A program made the translations under genes and the position numbers. From a virus, in IMG/VR virus record IMGVR_UViG_3300048592_001388, positions 1 through 61,026 of that record: DNA of 61,026 bases, one strand, 5' to 3'. Shown piece by piece: positions 2,999-43,166 of this stretch. Position 1 is the stretch's first letter; the number at the start of each line of letters is the position of its first letter. A model generated the notes under the pieces. The model was not told the DNA's origin. It worked only from the letters and a program-made list of their open reading frames with translations, and ran no database searches.

Positions 2999-5533
2999 AG
3001 AAAGTCCTATCTGTACTTGCTGCGCCTCTACTAGAGCGGAAATCTCCGAATATAGATCAATCGTCTGTTCTGGCGCAGAAATCGAGATTACTAGTGAGTA
3101 GCGAGCTTTATCTGAAGCACGCCTTTGGCCTGCATGAGACTTCCACCATCCCCCAACTGGATAAATGGCAATTGCGTCATGCAGAGCAAGATCTGCTGCA
3201 TAGCCGCGCCACATATCGCAATGTAGAGATCCTGCCTGGATTGCCTTGAGGCCAAGCAGCCAATAGCTCTGCTCATGATCAGTGTGAGTGCCATCGTTCG
3301 GCTGACTCGACGATATTCGCCTCCTGAATCGTGCGTCCGTCTCTGCGCGCTTCTTCATTTCAAATCGCAGCCCAAATGAACGATATGTGTCCGGACGCGT
3401 AGCTGCCCGACCGGTGAGGTTGGGTTCTATGAAATAGGAGAGCGTCACCTTCATGGTGACAATCTCATTCTCCAACAATTCGAGAGCCGAAGTCGGCCAC
3501 GGGAGTTGATAAATGTGCATTTCATTGAATACGGCTGAGCCGCCCGTGCTTTGCGAATAGGGCTGTATCTCAGCCTGTGCAACAAGTGTTACATCGTTGC
3601 GCGCCGACATGACTGCACGCGAGAGTTCTGGAACTCCATAACCGACTTCTCTGAGCGCTTGTCTCATCTGAGCCTTGGATCCACTCTTCCAATGCGCTCC
3701 GCGCCCTATGAATTTCGTCCGGATTGGTCCAGGCCACCGGGCTGAATCCACAGTAAGGGCGCGGTGTGTTTCTGGCCAGAGATGGGGCAGTGCTGCCTGC
3801 AGTTGCCCGACGAAATTGCCGGCGACACCAACCGCCGCGCTTGTAGCCCAAAACGGAACCAAGGGATTTGAAACCGTGTCGGAACCGGTCGACAAGAGCG
3901 ATACGGCCGGATTCCAATCACAAAATCCGCTTTCATCGGCTAGCATATTCCCTGCTTCGAATAGCACTTCCGGCTTGATCGGCACCAAGTCGTCAGGGAG
4001 TGAGTGCGAGCCCCTACTAAATGGGCTGCGATGATTGGCGGCAACTGCGGGCGTTAGAGCCGGCGGTGGTGGCGGAGGTTGGTCTTTTCGGGTTATTCCT
4101 CCCACGGTCAAAGCGTTCCAGCTTTGCGACGGGTCTTCGAGGGGCTTGCACGGAAGAACATCTTCCATCATTCCTTCAAGCGAATTCCCTGTTGAAACCA
4201 CTATCAGGCGCTTGGGTCGTGCAGATGCAGGTATTGCTTCTTCGGCCTCAATCGGCATAGCCCCCGCAGCAATCTGGTCTAGCGCTCCGCTCCAGGTTGA
4301 GGGGCGATGTGGTGGAAAATCTGTTGTGGACACCGCCAGACAAAAGCTTCGGAGAACACCTGGTCGTTCTGACTCCACTGAGCTGATTGCTCCTTGTGTG
4401 ACAAGGCCATAGCTAGGTGGATCCGTCGCTGGAAAGCCCAACGGGGGAAGAAGCTTCATTGATTCAACGCCATGGGTGAGCTGAATCGCATTAGCTCCAT
4501 TCATCAGAGGCTCGAGATCACCATGCAATACTAACCCGGCCAAGGGGGTACCGTGACCTCCGTCGGCGTGGTGATCATCTGCGCCCCAGGCTGCGTCATA
4601 TGCCCATGCGCCACGCAATCCCGGTGAGATAAGTGGATGACCAGAGGATATTCCGGTATCAAGCGTGCAAACTACCGGAGAGTTCTCAGGCGGCGCCACC
4701 ACACGCGCGGAAAGTTCTGCAACCCACTCGTGCTGATTTACCCCCTGGCCTCCGCTAAGAAATATCTCGATGGTACCAGTGGCCTTCCGGACCTCCGTGA
4801 TGGCGCCAGGGATGAGCGCAGCAAATGAGGCGATGCGACCGGCAGACGAATGTAGAAAAATTACGGTAGTGTCCGGAAAGAACAGGCGGTCTGAATGCAC
4901 GTCTATGCCCTCTCCGACGGCAGCCGAAGTGATCCGATCCGCGAGAATGCGGGGTTGGCGAATCCATAGTTCCCACCAGCCAACTTCGGCGTTCGCAAGA
5001 TCTACATCGCCTGTGAACAGTGAAGAGAGGTTGACAGCCCGAACTTCTTCTATGACCTCAAACCGCTCGACATCTGGCCTTTGTTGATTTCCAGGGTTAC
5101 GACCGTAGTTCTCGATGCGCATACGCAAGTAGTCGCTGGCCTCGTCCGGAATGAAAAGAAGTGCACTTTCGGACCGATTTTCATTTCTCGTCGTGCGCAA
5201 CACAGATATTTCCTGTGCCGGAAAATCCAGATTGCTAGGAAGCTTCACGGCGGTCGCGCGCGAAGTCTCGGCCGGAGGCATTGTATGAACTTCAACTACT
5301 CGACCAAGCTTTATCCCCTCAATCAGTATGCGAGAGTCATCCTGCCCTGTAGGCCGAGCACTGAGTGCTTGCGCCAGCTGAACGAGTAAAGCCTCCGCGT
5401 GAGCGGCATAATCATCGCGTAGTGGTCTGCGTTCTTGTCTGCGGGAAGGGAATGTATAGTCGAGCTTCTCAACAAAGCGATCAATGGAAAGGTGGGGAAG
5501 GCGCCGTTCCCCGAAGCTGTCAGTTTCCGGCAT
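2990..5533 (-). CDS. ietS: Subtilisin-like serine protease, IetS family
   Basis: This 847-aa S8 peptidase has an N-terminal domain of about 280 residues and then the catalytic domain. Asp292 lies in LDTG, His327 in GGHGTP, the oxyanion Asn450 in STGN, and the catalytic Ser565 in WATSAA, where the usual GTS is altered to ATS. A beta-rich C-terminal domain follows, with a WRG...GGWW signature. No signal peptide is seen, so it should act in the cytoplasm. It lies 50 bp downstream of the AAA ATPase gene in the same direction. IetA-IetS was described as a toxin-antitoxin stability pair on a Ti plasmid and later as an anti-phage system. Its substrates cannot be read from sequence. Confidence 0.9.
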   Translation of the reverse strand: MPETDSFGERRLPHLSIDRFVEKLDYTFPSRRQERRPLRDDYAAHAEALLVQLAQALSARPTGQDDSRILIEGIKLGRVVEVHTMPPAETSRATAVKLPSNLDFPAQEISVLRTTRNENRSESALLFIPDEASDYLRMRIENYGRNPGNQQRPDVERFEVIEEVRAVNLSSLFTGDVDLANAEVGWWELWIRQPRILADRITSAAVGEGIDVHSDRLFFPDTTVIFLHSSAGRIASFAALIPGAITEVRKATGTIEIFLSGGQGVNQHEWVAELSARVVAPPENSPVVCTLDTGISSGHPLISPGLRGAWAYDAAWGADDHHADGGHGTPLAGLVLHGDLEPLMNGANAIQLTHGVESMKLLPPLGFPATDPPSYGLVTQGAISSVESERPGVLRSFCLAVSTTDFPPHRPSTWSGALDQIAAGAMPIEAEEAIPASARPKRLIVVSTGNSLEGMMEDVLPCKPLEDPSQSWNALTVGGITRKDQPPPPPPALTPAVAANHRSPFSRGSHSLPDDLVPIKPEVLFEAGNMLADESGFCDWNPAVSLLSTGSDTVSNPLVPFWATSAAVGVAGNFVGQLQAALPHLWPETHRALTVDSARWPGPIRTKFIGRGAHWKSGSKAQMRQALREVGYGVPELSRAVMSARNDVTLVAQAEIQPYSQSTGGSAVFNEMHIYQLPWPTSALELLENEIVTMKVTLSYFIEPNLTGRAATRPDTYRSFGLRFEMKKRAETDARFRRRISSSQPNDGTHTDHEQSYWLLGLKAIQAGSLHCDMWRGYAADLALHDAIAIYPVGGWWKSHAGQRRASDKARYSLVISISAPEQTIDLYSEISALVEAQQVQIGLSRD

Positions 5534-27718: not shown

Positions 27719-28978
27719 ATGATCGTCACCGACATGCCGGTGGAGAGCCTGGTTCCCTATGCCCGCAACCCGCGCAACAACACCGCCGCCATCGACGCGG
27801 TGAAGGCGTCGATCGCCGAGTTCGGCTTCCGCCAGCCCATCGTGGTGGACGAGAAGCTGGTGGTGATCGTCGGGCACACCCGGCTCGAGGCCGCGAAGCA
27901 GCTGGGCCTCAAGACTGTCCCGGTGCATGTGGCCGAGGGCCTGACCCCGGCGCAGGCCAAGGCCTATCGCATCATGGACAACCGCTCGCACGAGAATGCC
28001 GAGTGGGATGATGAACTCCTGCGGCTGGAATTCGGAGACCTGAAGCTCGACGACTTCGACCTAGCGCTGACCGGCTTCGTCTCCGACGAGCTCGACAAGC
28101 TCCTGGGCGCAGAGCAGATCGAGGGTCTCACTGACCCGGATGAGGCACCCGAGGTTCCCGCCGAAGCTGTCAGCCGGCCGGGCGACCTCTGGATCCTCGG
28201 CGATCACCGCGTGCTCTGCGGCGACTCGACCGTGATGACCGATGTCGAGAAGCTGATGGGCGGCCAACTGGCTGACATGGCGGTGACGGATCCACCCTAC
28301 AACGTGGATTACGGCAACAGCGCCAAGGACAAGATGCGCGGCAAGGACCGCCGCATCCTGAACGACGCGCTGGGCGATGGCTTCTATCAGTTCCTCTATG
28401 ACACCTGCGTCAACCTGCTCATGGTGATCAAGGGTGCCTGTTACATCTGCATGAGTTCCTCGGAACTCCACACCCTGCAGAAGGCTTTCACCGACGCCGG
28501 TGGCAAGTGGTCGACCTTCATCATCTGGGCGAAGAATACCTTCACACTCGGGCGCGCAGATTATCAGCGGCAGTACGAGCCGATCCTCTACGGCTGGAAG
28601 GACGGCAGTCAGCACTACTGGTGCGGCGCCCGCGACCAGGGTGATGTCTGGTTCGTGGACAGGCCGCGGGTGAACGACCTGCACCCCACCATGAAGCCGG
28701 TGGAGCTCATCGAGCGGGCCATCACCAATTCGTCCAAGAGCCGGGATATCGTCCTCGACCTGTTCGGCGGGTCGGGTACCACCCTCATCGCCGCCGAGCG
28801 CACCGGCCGCTCGGCGCGGCTGATGGAACTCGACCCCAAATACGTCGATGTTATCGTCCAGCGCTGGCAGGATTACTCTGGCAACACCGCGGTGTTGGCC
28901 GGCGAAGATCGGACCTTTGACGACCTCAAGTCGAGCCGCGCGAAACGCGCGGATCAATCCGTTCTATGTGAAGGCTGA
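27719..28978 (+). CDS. ParB-domain site-specific DNA methyltransferase
   Basis: This 419-aa fusion has a ParB/Srx-like nuclease-related domain at residues 5-100 (GHTRLEAAKQLG). It is followed by a methyltransferase with DPPYNVDYG at 191-199 and FGGSGTT near 345, giving the order of a beta-class N4/N6 amino-methylase. The target recognition region lies between. Such ParB-MTase fusions are common in phages of alphaproteobacteria, where they modify phage DNA against host restriction. It overlaps the convergent DUF465 gene by 15 bases. Confidence 0.9.
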   Translation: MIVTDMPVESLVPYARNPRNNTAAIDAVKASIAEFGFRQPIVVDEKLVVIVGHTRLEAAKQLGLKTVPVHVAEGLTPAQAKAYRIMDNRSHENAEWDDELLRLEFGDLKLDDFDLALTGFVSDELDKLLGAEQIEGLTDPDEAPEVPAEAVSRPGDLWILGDHRVLCGDSTVMTDVEKLMGGQLADMAVTDPPYNVDYGNSAKDKMRGKDRRILNDALGDGFYQFLYDTCVNLLMVIKGACYICMSSSELHTLQKAFTDAGGKWSTFIIWAKNTFTLGRADYQRQYEPILYGWKDGSQHYWCGARDQGDVWFVDRPRVNDLHPTMKPVELIERAITNSSKSRDIVLDLFGGSGTTLIAAERTGRSARLMELDPKYVDVIVQRWQDYSGNTAVLAGEDRTFDDLKSSRAKRADQSVLCEG

Positions 28979-30174: not shown

Positions 30175-30399
30175 TCACTCGGCGTGTTCGCCTTCCTTGA
30201 AGGCGGCGTCGGTAACGCGCTTCAGCTGGGAGGCGTAATAGTCGAGGTTCCCGACGTGTCCCCAATGCAGCGTATCGGGATCGGTTTCGAAATGGCTGGC
30301 GCTGAGCGCAGCGAGTCTTGCCAGCATGGTGTCGATCTCGGCCTTCCTGGCGATGAAGGCAGCGAGGGCCTTGCTGTTGTCCTTGGTGCAGCTTTGCAT
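30175..30399 (-). CDS. Small conserved phage-island protein, 74 aa
   Basis: The start (MQSCTKDNSKALAAF) is chosen by a CAGGAGACC site just upstream; longer starts lack one. Helical N-terminal half (AAFIARKAEIDTMLARLAAL) and LHWGHVGNLDYYASQLKRVTDAAF. It resembles small proteins found next to DUF3489 genes. No function is known. Confidence 0.65.
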   Translation of the reverse strand: MQSCTKDNSKALAAFIARKAEIDTMLARLAALSASHFETDPDTLHWGHVGNLDYYASQLKRVTDAAFKEGEHAE

Positions 30400-30584
30400 G
30401 GCGGTCTCCTGTTGGAGCCATACATGCTTCATGTGCGCCGGAAGACAAGCGGAATGAACGATCATGATATTGCTTTATGAGCAGGCCAAGAGCCTGACAT
30501 GAACGGGGACCCTACCCGCCCCTGGGACGCGCGATGATGCCGATGGAACCTGATTCGAACGACGGCCGGAGACGCCTCTTGTTC

Positions 30585-30604
30585 CTGATCAGCTGACTGA
30601 TCAG
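30585..30604. repeat. Tandem 8-bp palindromes CTGATCAG
   Basis: Two exact copies (30585-30592 and 30597-30604) are separated by CTGA, so the whole forms a larger inverted repeat. It is in the 252-bp non-coding space between the end of the ppsR-like gene and the start of the 74-aa gene (both minus strand). It may be an operator for the latter. Confidence 0.5.
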
Positions 30605-30651
30605 CACCTGCACGGGAGGCGAGCTTCAGTCTGACGTCGTTCTCCGACGGC

Positions 30652-31362
30652 TCAACTCAAATTGTGACTCTTGATCTTCTCCATCCACGCGTCCAGCGGC
30701 ATTTTTGCAACCTTTGCCGCTACGTCATGACTGCCGCCGGCCTCCTGCAGAATTGCCATCAAACACCGCTTCTCGAGTGCAGAAGCCGTCTCCGCAATTA
30801 CTTTGTCGAACGGCGAGCGTTCGATTTGCGCTAGAACACTTTCAACAGGAGAATCGGCCGTTCCTGGTTCATTGAGACCTCGTGCGGGGCTTTCAAGTTT
30901 CCGCAGCTTTTCATTGTACTGGTATTCCATCTCACGCTGAGCCGCCAGGAAGCGGTCGTTCGCTGCCTGCAATGGTCGCAGGTCACGCAGAACCAACATT
31001 TGGGCTTCCCGTCCATCGCTTCTCAGGACCAGATAACGTGCGAGAACCGGGATGAAGGTTCCAGCAGCGCCCACCAGATTGATGTGCCGCCAGGGAACCG
31101 CGGATGACGTCTCACTCGCATCGTTCGACATCAGAACATCGATTTTTCCGAGGGACTCTGGTCCGACGATGGTTCTGACAGGGTGCCCAATCCAGTGCGA
31201 GACGTCAGCGGCGGAAAAACTATCGGAGTGGACGGCATCGATCACAATGGAGTTATGATCGATGAATAGCGTAAGGTCCTGTGTCTTGTCGATCAACAAT
31301 CGCACCCATGCGGATGACAACGCGGGCAGTGTCACAGATTGGAGGGGATGTGCAGAAGCCAT
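30652..31362 (-). CDS. Mini PpsR/CrtJ-like PAS-HTH regulator
   Basis: This 236-aa protein has a PAS-like N-terminal part (about 15-125), then a charged helix (RFLAAQREMEYQYNEKLRKLE) and a short C-terminal Fis-type helix-turn-helix (ALEKRCLMAILQEAGGSHDVAAKVAKM). This order repeats the PAS-helix-HTH plan of PpsR/CrtJ, the redox-sensing repressor of photosynthesis genes, but at half the length (PpsR is about 465 aa). It lies three bases after an AerR-like gene, as crtJ follows aerR in Rhodobacter. Targets are unknown. Confidence 0.68.
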   Translation of the reverse strand: MASAHPLQSVTLPALSSAWVRLLIDKTQDLTLFIDHNSIVIDAVHSDSFSAADVSHWIGHPVRTIVGPESLGKIDVLMSNDASETSSAVPWRHINLVGAAGTFIPVLARYLVLRSDGREAQMLVLRDLRPLQAANDRFLAAQREMEYQYNEKLRKLESPARGLNEPGTADSPVESVLAQIERSPFDKVIAETASALEKRCLMAILQEAGGSHDVAAKVAKMPLDAWMEKIKSHNLS

Positions 31363-31365
31363 GAT

Positions 31366-32172
31366 TCAGTTTCTCGAAAGTTCGACGGTCGTTGTGCCGG
31401 AGCAATACCCCAGCGCGTCTTCAACACTGAGCGCGATATAGTCTGCGCCCAGCCACTCATACTGGGTCCTAGGCGACGAAAAAACATTGCCCCCCAAAAT
31501 GATCTTCACGGATGGATTCCGACTCTTCTGGCGCAGCAGCGATATGAACTGTCCGAGATCAAGAAGTCCCTCATCATAACCGACCGAGAGACCAATGAAG
31601 TCGGCGGACCAGTCTGTTGCAGACCGTACTATACCGTCAGGATGATCGTTCGTGAAAGTCTGCGTGTCCCATCCAGCCGCACGAAAGCTGTCGCCGACGA
31701 CTGACAGCCCGAAGACGTGCTGAGTTTCTGGCGCGGCAGCCAGAAGGACCCGACCCCAGGCCGACCCCTTGGGTCTTGTCTGGTTGGGTCTCTTACTTTC
31801 GAGACGGCTCAGGAGCTGTTCTACGTTCCAGAACGCATAGACCGTATCGGTATAACTCCGTTGGCCGGCGCGCCAGTCGTTCTCGAGCTGAGGAATCACG
31901 GGAAGAATCAAGCTGAGCTGATCACGAGTTCCGACTGACGCGCTCTCCAGGGAAGAATTCAGGATCAACTCTGCTTGCTGCAGATCGCCATCGCAAAACG
32001 CCTCAAGAAGCGAAGTGCTTGACGGCCCCTCCTGCGACATGTCGCTGACACTTGCACGACTCGGGAGTGCGCGGAGTTTGAGCGCCTGGAGGGTGTCACC
32101 AAGCCACTTGCGACAATCCTGGATAGCGGCACTCGTCATGGGCGCCTTCGGGAATGGCATTGAAACGGTCAT
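31366..32172 (-). CDS. AerR-like cobalamin-binding antirepressor
   Basis: This 268-aa protein has a helical cap (LLEAFCDGDLQQAELIL ... QLENDWRAGQRSYTDTVYAFW) and a Rossmann B12-binding half with ETQHVFGLSVVGDSFRAAGW; the HxxG motif of corrinoid binders is present as HVFG. The C-terminal part has IGLSVGYDEG and IILGGNVF strands. This matches AerR, which uses B12 and light to counter PpsR/CrtJ. It is first of a two-gene operon with the mini PpsR. Met12 is an alternative start. Cargo nature and phage control are inferred. Confidence 0.72.
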   Translation of the reverse strand: MTVSMPFPKAPMTSAAIQDCRKWLGDTLQALKLRALPSRASVSDMSQEGPSSTSLLEAFCDGDLQQAELILNSSLESASVGTRDQLSLILPVIPQLENDWRAGQRSYTDTVYAFWNVEQLLSRLESKRPNQTRPKGSAWGRVLLAAAPETQHVFGLSVVGDSFRAAGWDTQTFTNDHPDGIVRSATDWSADFIGLSVGYDEGLLDLGQFISLLRQKSRNPSVKIILGGNVFSSPRTQYEWLGADYIALSVEDALGYCSGTTTVELSRN

Positions 32173-32181
32173 AAACCGTTT
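32163..32181. promoter_or_regulatory. 7-bp inverted repeat over the AerR-like start codon
   Basis: AAACGGT (32163-32169) and ACCGTTT (32175-32181) flank five bases including the CAT complement of the start codon (32170-32172). A bound protein would block translation or transcription start. It is not the TGT-N12-ACA site of PpsR. Confidence 0.4.
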
Positions 32182-32299
32182 AGCCAGTTTGTGCGGGCAT
32201 GTCCATCCACTGGGGCTCCGGAAAGCGTCGGTGGTGCGTCGGGGTTGAGCAATACGCGCTCGTCTGGGGGATTACTATTCAAGGGAAGGGGCCTGCAGG

Positions 32300-32797
32300 A
32301 TGGCGGAACATGCAGGCCTGATCCCCATCGGCCAGGCCGCGCGGCTGCTGATGATCTCGGAGGAGCGTATCCGGCAGCTGGTGAAGCAGGGCTTCATCCC
32401 GCGACCTGAGAAGCGCGGTTTCGTGCAACTCGTGGGGGCTGTGCAGGGATACCTGCGTTACCTGAAGGATGATGAGCGCCGCTCCGCCAAGTCGGCCGCC
32501 GACAGCCGGGTGCGCGATGCTCGGGCGCTCGAAATCGAACTCCGCATCGCCGAGCGCTCGCGCGAGCTGATCCCGGTCGAGGATGCACTCAACGACATGG
32601 CGGAGCTCGCGGGCATGGTGAGGTCGGAGCTTGCAGGGCTTCCGGCGCGGCTGACCCGCATCGTGGCCGAGCGCCAGAAGGTTGAAACAGAGATTGATGG
32701 TGTCCTCTCGCGCCTTTCCCAGCGAGCCGCAGAAAAGGCTGAAGGCCTGGAGGCTGGCCGAAGCCATCCTCCTGCCGGCGCCGAAGCTGCCGCCTGA
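32300..32797 (+). CDS. Phage terminase small subunit, Nu1-like
   Basis: This 165-aa protein has an N-terminal winged HTH (LIPIGQAARLLMISEERIRQLVKQGFIPRP) like lambda Nu1. A long helix (RDARALEIELRIAERSRELIPVEDALN) and another helical part follow. It should bind the packaging site and bring the large subunit. It is first of the late packaging operon and overlaps the large subunit start by about 100 bases. Confidence 0.85.
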   Translation: MAEHAGLIPIGQAARLLMISEERIRQLVKQGFIPRPEKRGFVQLVGAVQGYLRYLKDDERRSAKSAADSRVRDARALEIELRIAERSRELIPVEDALNDMAELAGMVRSELAGLPARLTRIVAERQKVETEIDGVLSRLSQRAAEKAEGLEAGRSHPPAGAEAAA

Positions 32798-34736
32798 CGA
32801 GTGGGCGCGTCTTCACAGGGTCTATCCTGAAACGTCAGGCCTTCCCGGTCCGCGTGATCCCGGTCTCACGCCCTACATGGTTCCGATGACGCATGCGGTG
32901 CATGGCGGAGCGTACAAGCGCGTGGTGATGGTGTGCTCTGCGCAAAGTGGCAAAACGGAATCCCTGTTGGATGTCTTGGGCGCACGTCTCGACCAGCGCC
33001 CTGCACCAATACTGTACGTGGGTCCGATCCGGGACTTCCTGACCGACCAGTTCGAGCCGCGCCTCATGAGTCTGCTCGACGAAGCCGAGACGCTCTCGGC
33101 CAAGGTGGTGCGCGGGCGGCGCATGAAGAAGACGCTGAAGATCGTGGCCGGCGTTCCGGTACGGCTTGCGCATGCAGGATCGTCGGCGGCCTTGAAGTCG
33201 AGCCCTGCAGCACTCGCGCTGGTCGACGAGTACGACGAGATGCTGGCGAACGTGAAGGGGCAGGGCGATCCCTTGGGGTTGGTCGAAGCCCGCGGCGAGA
33301 CCTACGCCGACTTCGTTACCGCCATCACCTCGACGCCCTCGCGTGGGTTGATCGAAACCGAATTGGATGAGCGAAGCGGTTTCAGGTTCTGGAAGGTTGC
33401 GGTCCCAGAGGCCGTCGAGAGCGCCATCTGGAAGCTCTGGCAATCTGGTACACGGCATCATTTCTGCTGGCCGTGCCTACACTGCGACAAGTACTTCGTG
33501 CCGCGCTTCGAGCAGATGCGCTGGCCCGAGAATGCCACGCCGGCGGAAGCGTCAAAGGCAGCGCAGTTGCAGTGCCCGCATTGCGGCGGCTTGCACCAGG
33601 ATGCTGACAAGCAGGAGATGAACGCCCGGGGTCTGTACGTGGCGCCGGGGCAATGGGTGGAAAAGGGAGAAGTCCGGGGCCAGCCCCCGGAAAACGCGGT
33701 GATCAGCTTCTGGGCCAGCGGGCTGGCGAGCCCCTTCGTCACCTGGGGCACCCGGATCGAGCGTTATGTCCGCGCTCTTGCTTCGGGCGATCCCGACCAG
33801 GTGCAGACAGCGCTGAATGCCGGGTTCGGCGAGTGCTTTACTCCCGCTGCAGGCCGTGATGCGTTGGACTGGCAGGAGATCCTGCAGCGTCGCGAACCTT
33901 ACCGCATGAAAGAGGTACCCGGCGGCGTTCTGCGGTTGGGGATGGGCGTCGATGTGCAGAAGCTGTCATTATACTACACCATCCGCGGCTTCGGCGCGCG
34001 GGGACGGTCTTGGCTCATCGACCGCGGACAGCTTTACGGCCCCACCGACGACGACGAGGTATGGAACGCGCTTGCCGACCTGATGCTCACGCCCATCGCT
34101 GGACTGCAGATCGAGCGGGTGTTCGTGGACTCCGGCTTCCGCCCGAACAAGCCCGATGCAGGCGACGAACACAAGGTCTACGAGTTTGTCAGGCGCTATC
34201 CGTGGCTGGTTTCACCCACCAAGGGCCGGGCCAGCATGTCGCCGCCCTACCGGGTGTCGAAGATCGAGGTGACGCCGCGAGGCAAGAAGGCGACCTACTC
34301 CATCGATCTGGTCTGGCTTTCGACCGACTTCTTCAAGTCGCTTCTGGTGTCGCGGATCCGCACACCTCTCGATCAGCCGGGGTCTTTCATCGTGCCGGAC
34401 GATATTGACGAGGATTACGCGAAGCAGCTTGTCTCCGAGGTACGCGTTGTCGATGGCGCCACCGGCAAGCCGCAGTGGGTCCAGAAATCACGGGCCAACC
34501 ACTATCTCGACTGCGAGGCGCTTGCCATGGCCATCGGCTACTCGCTGAACGTCCAACGAATTCCGGATGGGGTGACGAGGGAGAGCCGCGGTGCTGAAAC
34601 CGGCCCTGAGACTGGAAGTGACACTGACAATGACGAAGCGACGGTTCGGGACAAGCCGGTAGTGGCTCTTGCTGCGGGAGCGATGCCGGACTTGCGTTCG
34701 CGCTTCGCAGGCCTTTCGTCACGATTGAACAGGTGA
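32697..34736 (+). CDS. Phage terminase large subunit, GpA family
   Basis: The start is taken at ATG 32697, with TTG 32682 as alternative, giving 679 aa. Walker A is SAQSGKT at 81-87 and Walker B is ALVDEYDEM. A zinc-like C-x2-C pair (CPHCGG) with an earlier CxHC follows, and the C-terminal nuclease region has VDVQKLSLYY and DCEALAMAIGY. This is the lambda GpA/PF05876 type, which cuts cos ends and packages DNA into the prohead. It overlaps the small subunit out of frame. Confidence 0.93.
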   Translation: MVSSRAFPSEPQKRLKAWRLAEAILLPAPKLPPDEWARLHRVYPETSGLPGPRDPGLTPYMVPMTHAVHGGAYKRVVMVCSAQSGKTESLLDVLGARLDQRPAPILYVGPIRDFLTDQFEPRLMSLLDEAETLSAKVVRGRRMKKTLKIVAGVPVRLAHAGSSAALKSSPAALALVDEYDEMLANVKGQGDPLGLVEARGETYADFVTAITSTPSRGLIETELDERSGFRFWKVAVPEAVESAIWKLWQSGTRHHFCWPCLHCDKYFVPRFEQMRWPENATPAEASKAAQLQCPHCGGLHQDADKQEMNARGLYVAPGQWVEKGEVRGQPPENAVISFWASGLASPFVTWGTRIERYVRALASGDPDQVQTALNAGFGECFTPAAGRDALDWQEILQRREPYRMKEVPGGVLRLGMGVDVQKLSLYYTIRGFGARGRSWLIDRGQLYGPTDDDEVWNALADLMLTPIAGLQIERVFVDSGFRPNKPDAGDEHKVYEFVRRYPWLVSPTKGRASMSPPYRVSKIEVTPRGKKATYSIDLVWLSTDFFKSLLVSRIRTPLDQPGSFIVPDDIDEDYAKQLVSEVRVVDGATGKPQWVQKSRANHYLDCEALAMAIGYSLNVQRIPDGVTRESRGAETGPETGSDTDNDEATVRDKPVVALAAGAMPDLRSRFAGLSSRLNR

Positions 34737-41325: not shown

Positions 41326-41607
41326 ATGCCACGCTACGCCATCACCGAGAGGGCGGGCCCCTTCGTCGCGGCCCATCGCAACACCGGGGTAGGGACCGTT
41401 CTTGATCTCACCGAGCGCCAGGCCGGGCATGAGTTGCGGATAGGCACGCTGGTCCGGTTGCCCGAGCCTGATCAGAGCGCCACCGGCAAACCAGATGTCG
41501 CGCCCGTCATTGTCGCGGCTCCGACTGAACTCCCGACCACGCCGGTCAGTGAGCAGAAAACCGATGCAGTGGCGCCGTCGCGCAAGCCCAGGCGGTCCGC
41601 CACTTGA
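41326..41607 (+). CDS. Small phage protein of unknown function, 93 aa
   Basis: An N-terminal segment (YAITERAGPFVAAHRNTGVG) and a Pro/Thr-rich, probably disordered tail. It lies between the spike and methyltransferase genes, and its stop overlaps the TTG start of the latter. A minor structural or accessory role is possible. No family recognised. Confidence 0.55.
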   Translation: MPRYAITERAGPFVAAHRNTGVGTVLDLTERQAGHELRIGTLVRLPEPDQSATGKPDVAPVIVAAPTELPTTPVSEQKTDAVAPSRKPRRSAT

Positions 41608-43166
41608 GCCTGAGCTATCTTTCCGTCTGCTCAGGCATCGAAGCAGCGACGGTCGCCTGGCATCCGCTGGGCTTCCGTCCGCTGGCCTTCTCCGAGATCG
41701 AGCCTTTCGCACGGGCGGTGCTCACCCATCACTATCCTGATGTGCCGCTGCATGGCGATTTCACGCTGCTGCGCGACGAGGACTGGATCGCTGGGGCCGA
41801 CATCCTGGTGGGCGGAACGCCATGCCAGGGATTTTCGATCGCAGGCCTGCGCCGCTCTCTTGATGACGCCCGTGGAAACCTCACCCTCGAGTTTTTGAGG
41901 CTTGCCGATGCCATTGATGAACGCCGCGACCGAGAAGGCCTCCCACCATGCATCGTTGTCTGGGAGAACGTCCCCGGCGTGCTCTCGGTCCGCGATAATG
42001 CCTTCGGCTGCTTCCTCTCGGGGTTATCTGGAGAGGACACCCCCTTCGTTCCGCCACGGGGCAAATGGACGAACGCGGGTGTGGCTCTTGGACCCGCGCG
42101 CGCAGTCGCGTGGCGGATCCTCGACGCCCAATTCTTCGGACTGGCCCAACGGCGCCGTCGTGTGTTCGTTGTCGCAAGTGCTCGAGAGGGGTTCGATCCC
42201 GCGGCGATTCTTCTTGAGTTCGAAGGCCTGCGCCGGGATTCTCCGCCGCGCCGAGAAGCGTGGCAAGACCTTGCCGCCGATGTTGCATCAGGCGCTGACG
42301 AGCGTCGCAGCCACTGGGACGGCGTAGAACATCCGCATCCCACGCTGAACCAGTCGTTCAACACCGGCGCCATCGGCTACAGCAATCAGGAACTGTTCAG
42401 CCAGCGAGGCGCGGGACTCGTTGGTGAGGCTTCGACGGGAGAGATCAGCCACTGCCTGAACGCCGGCGGCATGGGACGGCAGGATTACGAAACCGAGACG
42501 CTGGTCACACACGCGCTCCGCGGTGAAGGCTTCGATGCGTCGGAGGATGGCACGGGCAGAGGCACCCCACTGGTTCCGGTGGCCTTCTCGGCCAAGGATC
42601 ACGGCGCCGACGCCACGGAAGACCTTTCGCCCACGCTCAGGGCCATGCCGCATGATGCGAGCCATGCCAATGGCGGCGGCCAGATGGCGGTTGCCGTGCC
42701 TCTGCTGGAAGTCGGCAAGCGCACCGGACCGTCGTCGACCGATGACATGCGGGCCGGGCTCGGCATCGGCGAGGATGGCGACCCCATGTTCACCCTGCAG
42801 GCCGGGGCGCAGCACGGAGTCGCGGCCTATGCCTTCCAGGCAAGGATTGCCCGCAACGGGCGCGGCGACATGGGCGACCTCGTCAATGCCCTCACCATGT
42901 CCGGCGAGACGGGGAAGGGCGATACCGCGCCCTGCGTTGCGTTGCCAATGATGGTGCGTCGCTTGACGTGCGAAGAGGCGGAATCCCTGCAAGGCTTTCC
43001 GCGAGGATATACGCGCATTCCTTGGAAGAAGAGGTCCGCCGAAGACTGCCCCGACGGACCCCGTTACCGCGCGCTCGGCAATTCCATGGCGGTGAACGTC
43101 ATGGGCTGGATCGGAGAGCGCATCAGGGCGATGGTTGAGAACGGGAAAGACGGAGTGGAGCCATGA
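41604..43166 (+). CDS. C5-cytosine DNA methyltransferase
   Basis: The 520-aa protein has the C5-methylase motifs: I (VCSGIEAATVAW), IV with catalytic Cys74 in GGTPCQGFS, VI (VWENV), VIII (QRRRRVF) and X (ALGNSMAVNV). A large variable region of about 250 residues holds the target recognition part. A TTG start overlaps the previous stop (TTGA). It is a moron-like gene in the baseplate cluster and probably protects phage DNA from host restriction. Confidence 0.93.
   Translation: MSLSYLSVCSGIEAATVAWHPLGFRPLAFSEIEPFARAVLTHHYPDVPLHGDFTLLRDEDWIAGADILVGGTPCQGFSIAGLRRSLDDARGNLTLEFLRLADAIDERRDREGLPPCIVVWENVPGVLSVRDNAFGCFLSGLSGEDTPFVPPRGKWTNAGVALGPARAVAWRILDAQFFGLAQRRRRVFVVASAREGFDPAAILLEFEGLRRDSPPRREAWQDLAADVASGADERRSHWDGVEHPHPTLNQSFNTGAIGYSNQELFSQRGAGLVGEASTGEISHCLNAGGMGRQDYETETLVTHALRGEGFDASEDGTGRGTPLVPVAFSAKDHGADATEDLSPTLRAMPHDASHANGGGQMAVAVPLLEVGKRTGPSSTDDMRAGLGIGEDGDPMFTLQAGAQHGVAAYAFQARIARNGRGDMGDLVNALTMSGETGKGDTAPCVALPMMVRRLTCEEAESLQGFPRGYTRIPWKKRSAEDCPDGPRYRALGNSMAVNVMGWIGERIRAMVENGKDGVEP

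Follow-up and report, generated by a model that had tools for sequence, protein, structure and literature searches.

The closest described system is the AerR/PpaA–CrtJ/PpsR regulator pair of Rhodobacter capsulatus and R. sphaeroides. AerR proteins combine a helical cap with a Rossmann B12-binding domain that carries the lower-ligand residues His145, Gly148 and Gly220. LAerR, which has the upper-ligand residue His10, binds cobalamin in a light-dependent manner, and SAerR, without His10, binds any cobalamin irrespective of light (PMC6199135, PMC9144470). PpsR/CrtJ is defined by three PAS domains, a Fis-type helix-turn-helix (HTH) with the recognition helix SRQSLYVKLRR, and a redox cysteine near the HTH (Cys420/424). 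PpsR without its N-domain fails to bind DNA, its tetramers need PAS2, and the four-helix bundle of AppA docks on the Q-linker, blocks PpsR tetramers and holds PpsR dimeric (PMC3949515).

The window analyzed here is a whole IMG/VR virus record of 61,026 bases, which contains genes for a GpA-type terminase, a lambda-type portal and an S49 protease. A serine integrase in the record (phrog_95, 1e-105) makes a temperate phage likely, which supports one part of the original description as a prophage; integration itself was not seen. Relatives were collected by a terminase search that returned 80 viral loci, and close relatives were those with terminases 85-94% identical. Both open reading frames of the original prediction were recovered exactly, intact and co-directional, with aerR first and a gap of 3 bases. 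The features of the locus, with the evidence used for each, are as follows.

30175..30465, minus strand: g30175, conserved small phage protein and left edge of the variable slot (PHROG match, phrog_14596; conserved in relatives)
30466..30651, no strand: left boundary of the moron (pair-less relatives L008, L010, L016, L017, L019, L021, L027)
30652..31362, minus strand: mini-PpsR P0002, 236 aa (TIGR02040, alignment to full PpsR, HTH comparison, fold match)
31366..32172, minus strand: AerR/PpaA-like cobalamin-binding-domain protein P0001, 268 aa (Pfam B12-binding, fold match, tree, L013 allele)
32173..32299, no strand: intergenic region between leftward aerR and the rightward terminase small subunit gene (sequence)
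32300..32797, plus strand: terminase small subunit-like protein, right edge of the slot (82-99% conserved in close relatives)
32682..34736, plus strand: terminase large subunit, GpA family (Pfam GpA_ATPase 3e-49, GpA_nuclease 6e-54)

The GC content of the pair is about 0.55-0.57, versus 0.64 in the surrounding phage genes, and its GC3 (0.59-0.63) is below that of the flanking phage genes. Within 32173..32299, an inverted repeat (AAACGGT-TTATG-ACCGTTT) spans the first ATG of aerR; the repeat is imperfect in L013. Elsewhere in the window, an HsdM-type methylase that PHROGs match strongly (phrog_34860) lies at the left end (1-2391), about 2.5 kb at 3000-5500 contains no convincing gene and only ORFs low in third-position GC, which is unusual in so dense a genome, and an ORF at 41604-43166, within the run of tail/baseplate genes, resembles a cytosine DNA methyltransferase by eye. 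A fusion of a ParB N-terminal domain with an N6/N4 DNA methyltransferase at 27719-28978 is kept beside the slot in related phages and prophages.

The close relatives have a gene order in common (methyltransferase, DUF3489 gene, g30175, terminase small subunit), and most of them are without the pair, the terminase small subunit beginning about 50-100 nt after g30175. L012 and L013, which are independent viral contigs, carry at the same position an aerR 75-77% identical to P0001 (75% in L013); the contig ends cut off the second gene in both. Only one phage allele of mini-PpsR is known. The slot in L015, L028 and L029 is occupied, as judged by eye, by a cold-shock protein of the CspA type together with a small HTH protein rich in lysine (L015 2347-2855, L028 487-1157, L029 4199-4869); this cargo in other phages suggests that small regulators are often inserted at this hotspot between g30175 and terminase. 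The aerR/mini-PpsR block, being optional between conserved phage genes and absent or replaced in close relatives, is a phage moron. The view that it is phage cargo lying opposite terminase was thus upheld, and an assembly chimera was ruled out, since L012 and L013 show the same AerR-terminase junction.

Alignment scans for further phage carriers of the pair yielded none beyond L012 and L013, and a search of annotated phages for the pair gave no match. Exact-pattern scans for P0001 or P0002 singly, in viral and genome contigs, also gave no match with patterns that were too strict, and PHROGs held no family for either protein. As far as the collections searched show, phage carriage of the mini pair appears to be new. 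Cyanophages carry photosystem genes; no report of a phage carrying regulators of anoxygenic photosynthesis was found in the literature searched, of which coverage was partial.

Some relatives differ in the terminase itself. An intein-like in-frame insert of about 345 aa (GAQMGK/S...VPTHN/T) is located at Walker A of the terminase large subunit in L028 (2981-6073), L030 (1047-4127) and also L029; the window terminase has no insert. In L028 and L029 an N-terminal piece of the terminase is also present as a duplicate, and in L028 an ORF that looks Fic-like by eye lies in between. Microcystis phage Mae-JY30 (L140, PP438422.1) has its terminase (58%), portal and gene layout in common with this alphaproteobacterial-type group, and for that reason its stated host may be in doubt.

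P0001 was matched by Pfam B12-binding at E 7e-14, above the cut-off, and its best PDB sequence matches were AppA SCHIC domains (5e-4). The structure prediction also agreed with the original assignment, in that the top-ranked structural match of the AlphaFold model was AerR of Rhodobacter capsulatus (7te2, 3.5e-9). As the models of P0001 and P0002 are of low confidence (pLDDT 56-58), fold matches were treated as support and not proof; the sequence evidence holds alone. P0001 comprises a helical cap (about residues 14-126) and a Rossmann B12 domain (139-260), and in-frame ATGs at codons 5 and 12 provide alternative starts. Residues H152, G155, S196 and G227-G228 are retained, H152 being the equivalent of AerR His145 and W100 that of cap Trp94, and H152, G155 and G228 are conserved in 44/44 canonical and 9/9 mini AerRs. 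The acidic residue at -2 is replaced by Thr in both phage alleles, and helix 4 of AerR is changed in the minis. On these residues, B12 binding by P0001 is plausible. No His was found anywhere before H152, so that an equivalent of His10 is missing; with the lower-ligand His present, P0001 should act like SAerR if cobalamin is bound. Light sensing of the LAerR kind, which had been suggested for this protein, is not supported by its sequence, which resembles that of the light-indifferent SAerR (PMC9144470, PMC6199135).

NCBIfam TIGR02040 (PpsR-CrtJ) matched P0002 at 6e-19 over model positions 1-136 only, with a score of 68 bits versus an equivalog cut-off of 275, and a PDB sequence search matched PpsR at 2e-8. 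Together with the Pfam match of P0001, these results confirm the predicted homology to AerR and PpsR. The best structural matches of the P0002 model were PpsR 4hh3/4l9g/4hh2 (3.6e-7). The protein consists of an N-domain PAS (about 10-127), a Q-linker helix (129-157) and Fis-type C-terminal helices (185-232; predicted helical C-terminus, pLDDT 77-89), and alignment to full-length PpsR showed that N-domain and Q-linker are fused straight to the C-terminal helical domain, with PAS1 and PAS2 missing. Cys200 corresponds to CrtJ Cys420, and its equivalent is retained in all 47 full PpsRs and all minis. In the recognition helix, S, R, Q and Y, together with the N-R just before, do not vary in 47/47 full PpsRs; all of them are replaced in the phage protein, which retains 4/17 near-invariant HTH residues (bacterial minis, 7-9) and has an HTH net charge of +1 in place of +3/+4. 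A profile of the full-length HTH gave -1.7 bits for P0002 versus 86 or more for the 47 full PpsRs, and an N-domain profile built from full PpsRs gave 83 bits versus 136 or more for the full set; the contrast is somewhat inflated because the training set included the full-length sequences, and the gap is nevertheless large. Four of the six AerR-facing Q-linker residues are kept (Q140, E144, Y147, R151; numbering and site after PMC9144470), and an aromatic residue occupies the position of linker Leu136 in all 6 minis compared. By sequence, P0002 is short of the full PpsR definition, though it is, like P0001, a recognizable relative of a known family. The earlier picture of a half-length PAS-HTH protein is correct for the N-domain PAS and the Fis-type helices and needs correction at the HTH, which is without almost all residues invariant in PpsR, making PpsR-type operator binding unlikely.

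A pair that matches the phage pair in architecture and gene order was found on a plasmid of Roseinatronobacter sp. S2 beside hemA, puhE, acsF and puhABC (P8S53_RS17040/RS17045, annotated ‘cobalamin-dependent protein’ and ‘hypothetical protein’). In a sample of 296 genomes from the family of this strain, about 120 had PpsR, almost always in frames of at least 470 aa, and only 2 had the short form; a search of the genus found the short form in 3/7, and a search of the order added more. The mini pair was present in 8 bacterial genomes in total (L002 7971-9550; G001 C18, G187 C81, G685 C47, G686 C94, G898 C269, G696 C4, G697 C3), always with the AerR-like gene directly before mini-PpsR. Several of the pairs lie beside puh/hemA or the wider photosynthesis cluster, and reaction-centre genes were present in all mini-pair genomes tested. 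The two genomes inspected, G001 and G187, have a standard aerR-ppsR pair as well, at another place in the cluster. In G187 and G685, the mini pair adjoins a gene for a SOUL-type heme-binding protein (by eye). Every mini-PpsR has a degraded recognition helix but retains an N-domain, a redox Cys and some of the linker on which AerR docks. The recognition helix of one bacterial mini, that of G696, is basic, so that loss of DNA binding may not be general.

In maximum-likelihood trees, the short PpsRs including the phage protein formed one clade against 46 full PpsRs (support 100/99), the accompanying AerRs formed one clade against 44 standard AerRs (support 99/94), and the phage protein was placed next to G686/G187/G685 in both. 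The mini-PpsR branches are long, which makes the PpsR tree weak by itself, so the conclusion on lineage relies on the agreement of the AerR tree, in which the phage branch is not unusually long. A recent truncation of the standard AerR-PpsR pair was rejected, as both trees place the phage genes in the separate mini lineage. The phage pair has the features of that lineage (co-directional aerR and a PpsR of about 230-265 aa, N-domain, Q-linker, degraded HTH, membership of one clade) and, on the sequence comparisons, is a member of a rare second AerR–mini-PpsR paralogue pair of a few phototrophic Rhodobacterales. The gene order is indeed that of photosynthesis clusters, as had been pointed out, but the closest relative is this mini pair and not the standard one. 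No name or description of the mini pair was found in the literature searched, with partial coverage. Between the two phage aerR alleles, dN is 0.13-0.14 and dS is 0.44-0.46; the ratio, about 0.30, indicates maintenance of the phage gene. For the bacterial minis, dN/dS was about 0.1-0.4 with the HTH segment included and 0.03-0.38 in the degraded HTH region; since purifying selection in bacteria extends to the degraded region, repurposing of the HTH is suggested rather than decay.

The closest relatives of the phage (TerL 85-94%) are all metagenomic viral contigs, and the nearest cellular relatives found are prophages in Alphaproteobacteria. G242, a member of the Rhodobacteraceae with reaction-centre genes and PpsR, contains two prophages with the methyltransferase-DUF3489-slot-terminase-portal layout of the phage; no reaction-centre genes were found in two other prophage carriers, G416 and G520. 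Because of the G242 prophages, a phototrophic member of the Rhodobacterales, among the purple photosynthetic bacteria, is a plausible host.

As mini-PpsR keeps the dimer module and the AerR-docking helix and would be unable to tetramerize or to read PpsR sites, we infer that it acts by protein contact and may poison host PpsR or sequester AerR under the control of its cobalamin-domain partner. The virus would thus probably interfere with host control proteins rather than with DNA. The explanation that we favor, while giving it slightly less than an even chance, is a module that binds protein, responds to cobalamin and modulates host PpsR, probably as a dominant negative, to keep the host photosystem expressed. 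Lacking both the tetramerizing PAS2 and a functional PpsR recognition helix, mini-PpsR would form dimers by way of the N-domain and Q-linker, either homodimers or dimers with host PpsR, and such dimers would poison the DNA-binding oligomers of PpsR. The cognate AerR-like protein would dock on the Q-linker of mini-PpsR and gate the effect by its bound cobalamin, so that in lysogeny or infection the host photosystem genes would be de-repressed or re-tuned to corrinoid status. Several points may count against this explanation: the metagenomic origin of all close relatives, the basic helix of G696, the low-confidence models, the single phage allele of mini-PpsR, and possible insulation from the standard pair, which could follow from the shared aromatic at linker 136 and the changed AerR helix 4.

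These last two changes are what would be expected of a separate cognate interface and, with the partly kept AerR-facing linker residues, fit a mini-PpsR that mainly sequesters AerR-type proteins, its own or those of the host, and leaves PpsR itself untouched. We consider this unlikely, as it leaves unexplained that selection has kept both the dimerizing N-domain and the helical C-terminal domain with its redox Cys. To a similar degree we doubt that the pair is a self-contained phage switch, in which mini-PpsR would bind its own DNA sites through the diverged HTH, dependent on cobalamin through the AerR-like protein, and control lysogeny or the terminase promoter. The helical C-terminus, the position of the pair divergently upstream of terminase, the G696 helix and the small HTH protein in the slot of relatives are all compatible with such a switch, but the recognition-helix residues are gone, basic charge is reduced, and PpsR-type sites (TGT-N12-ACA) are in no significant excess in the window (9 versus 5.3 expected). 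Moreover, the pair is missing from many close relatives whose terminase region is the same, from which it follows that the phage does not need it. A cobalamin riboswitch was looked for and none was found, a promoter/terminator scan of the window gave matches at chance level, and the proposed lysogeny switch was left with no link to the pair.

That the block is a laterally acquired host fragment, decaying or neutral and on its way to being lost, is improbable. Its low GC and GC3, its absence from most relatives and the long mini-PpsR branch could be read in this way, but low GC is usual in morons, both frames are intact, the aerR alleles of two phage lineages show constraint and the position is identical in three viral contigs. 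A function outside photosynthesis, either in superinfection or as a general corrinoid/redox sensor acting on other host regulators, is given similarly little weight. It would suit the other small regulatory cargo in the slot of relatives and the many non-photosynthetic genes affected by known AerR-type proteins (PMC6199135, PMC10734443), but every cellular relative of the pair among those checked is in a reaction-centre genome, several of them right next to the photosynthesis cluster.

If modulation of host PpsR by the pair is correct, the phage rewires the light-energy program of its host through the master repressor and links that program to vitamin B12. The comparison also reveals, in phototrophic Rhodobacterales, a second AerR–PpsR-like pair that is unannotated and the repressor half of which seems to have given up PpsR-type DNA recognition and would be a natural dominant negative, a proposal that is directly testable. 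As a broader generalization, possible but doubtful, phages of purple bacteria would carry a cobalamin-gated dominant-negative form of the master photosynthesis repressor, by which lysogens or infected cells would keep or re-tune their photosystem, and the bacterial mini pair would form a DNA-independent layer of photosynthesis control that had gone unrecognized.

Compared with the AerR/PpaA–CrtJ/PpsR pair, the phage pair is alike in the aerR-then-ppsR order, the cap Trp, the HxxG and GG corrinoid motifs, the PpsR N-domain, the Q-linker and the Cys420 equivalent, and differs in that its PpsR is without PAS1, PAS2 and the recognition-helix residues, its AerR is without His10, and it is phage-borne. 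The AppA SCHIC–PpsR complex of R. sphaeroides is a model for the contact proposed here, a B12-fold domain on the PpsR Q-linker that prevents tetramers; AppA binds heme and has a BLUF domain, whereas in P0001 the His position is of the B12 type and a BLUF domain is missing. The cold-shock and small HTH moron of the relatives is likewise optional, lower-GC cargo, with conserved phage genes on both sides of its fixed slot, but the content of the present slot is a photosynthesis regulator pair. The short pair of Roseinatronobacter sp. S2 and the seven other genomes is alike in protein sizes, architecture, order and a short gap or overlap; it is cellular and 24-30% identical to the phage pair, whose HTH is the most degraded.
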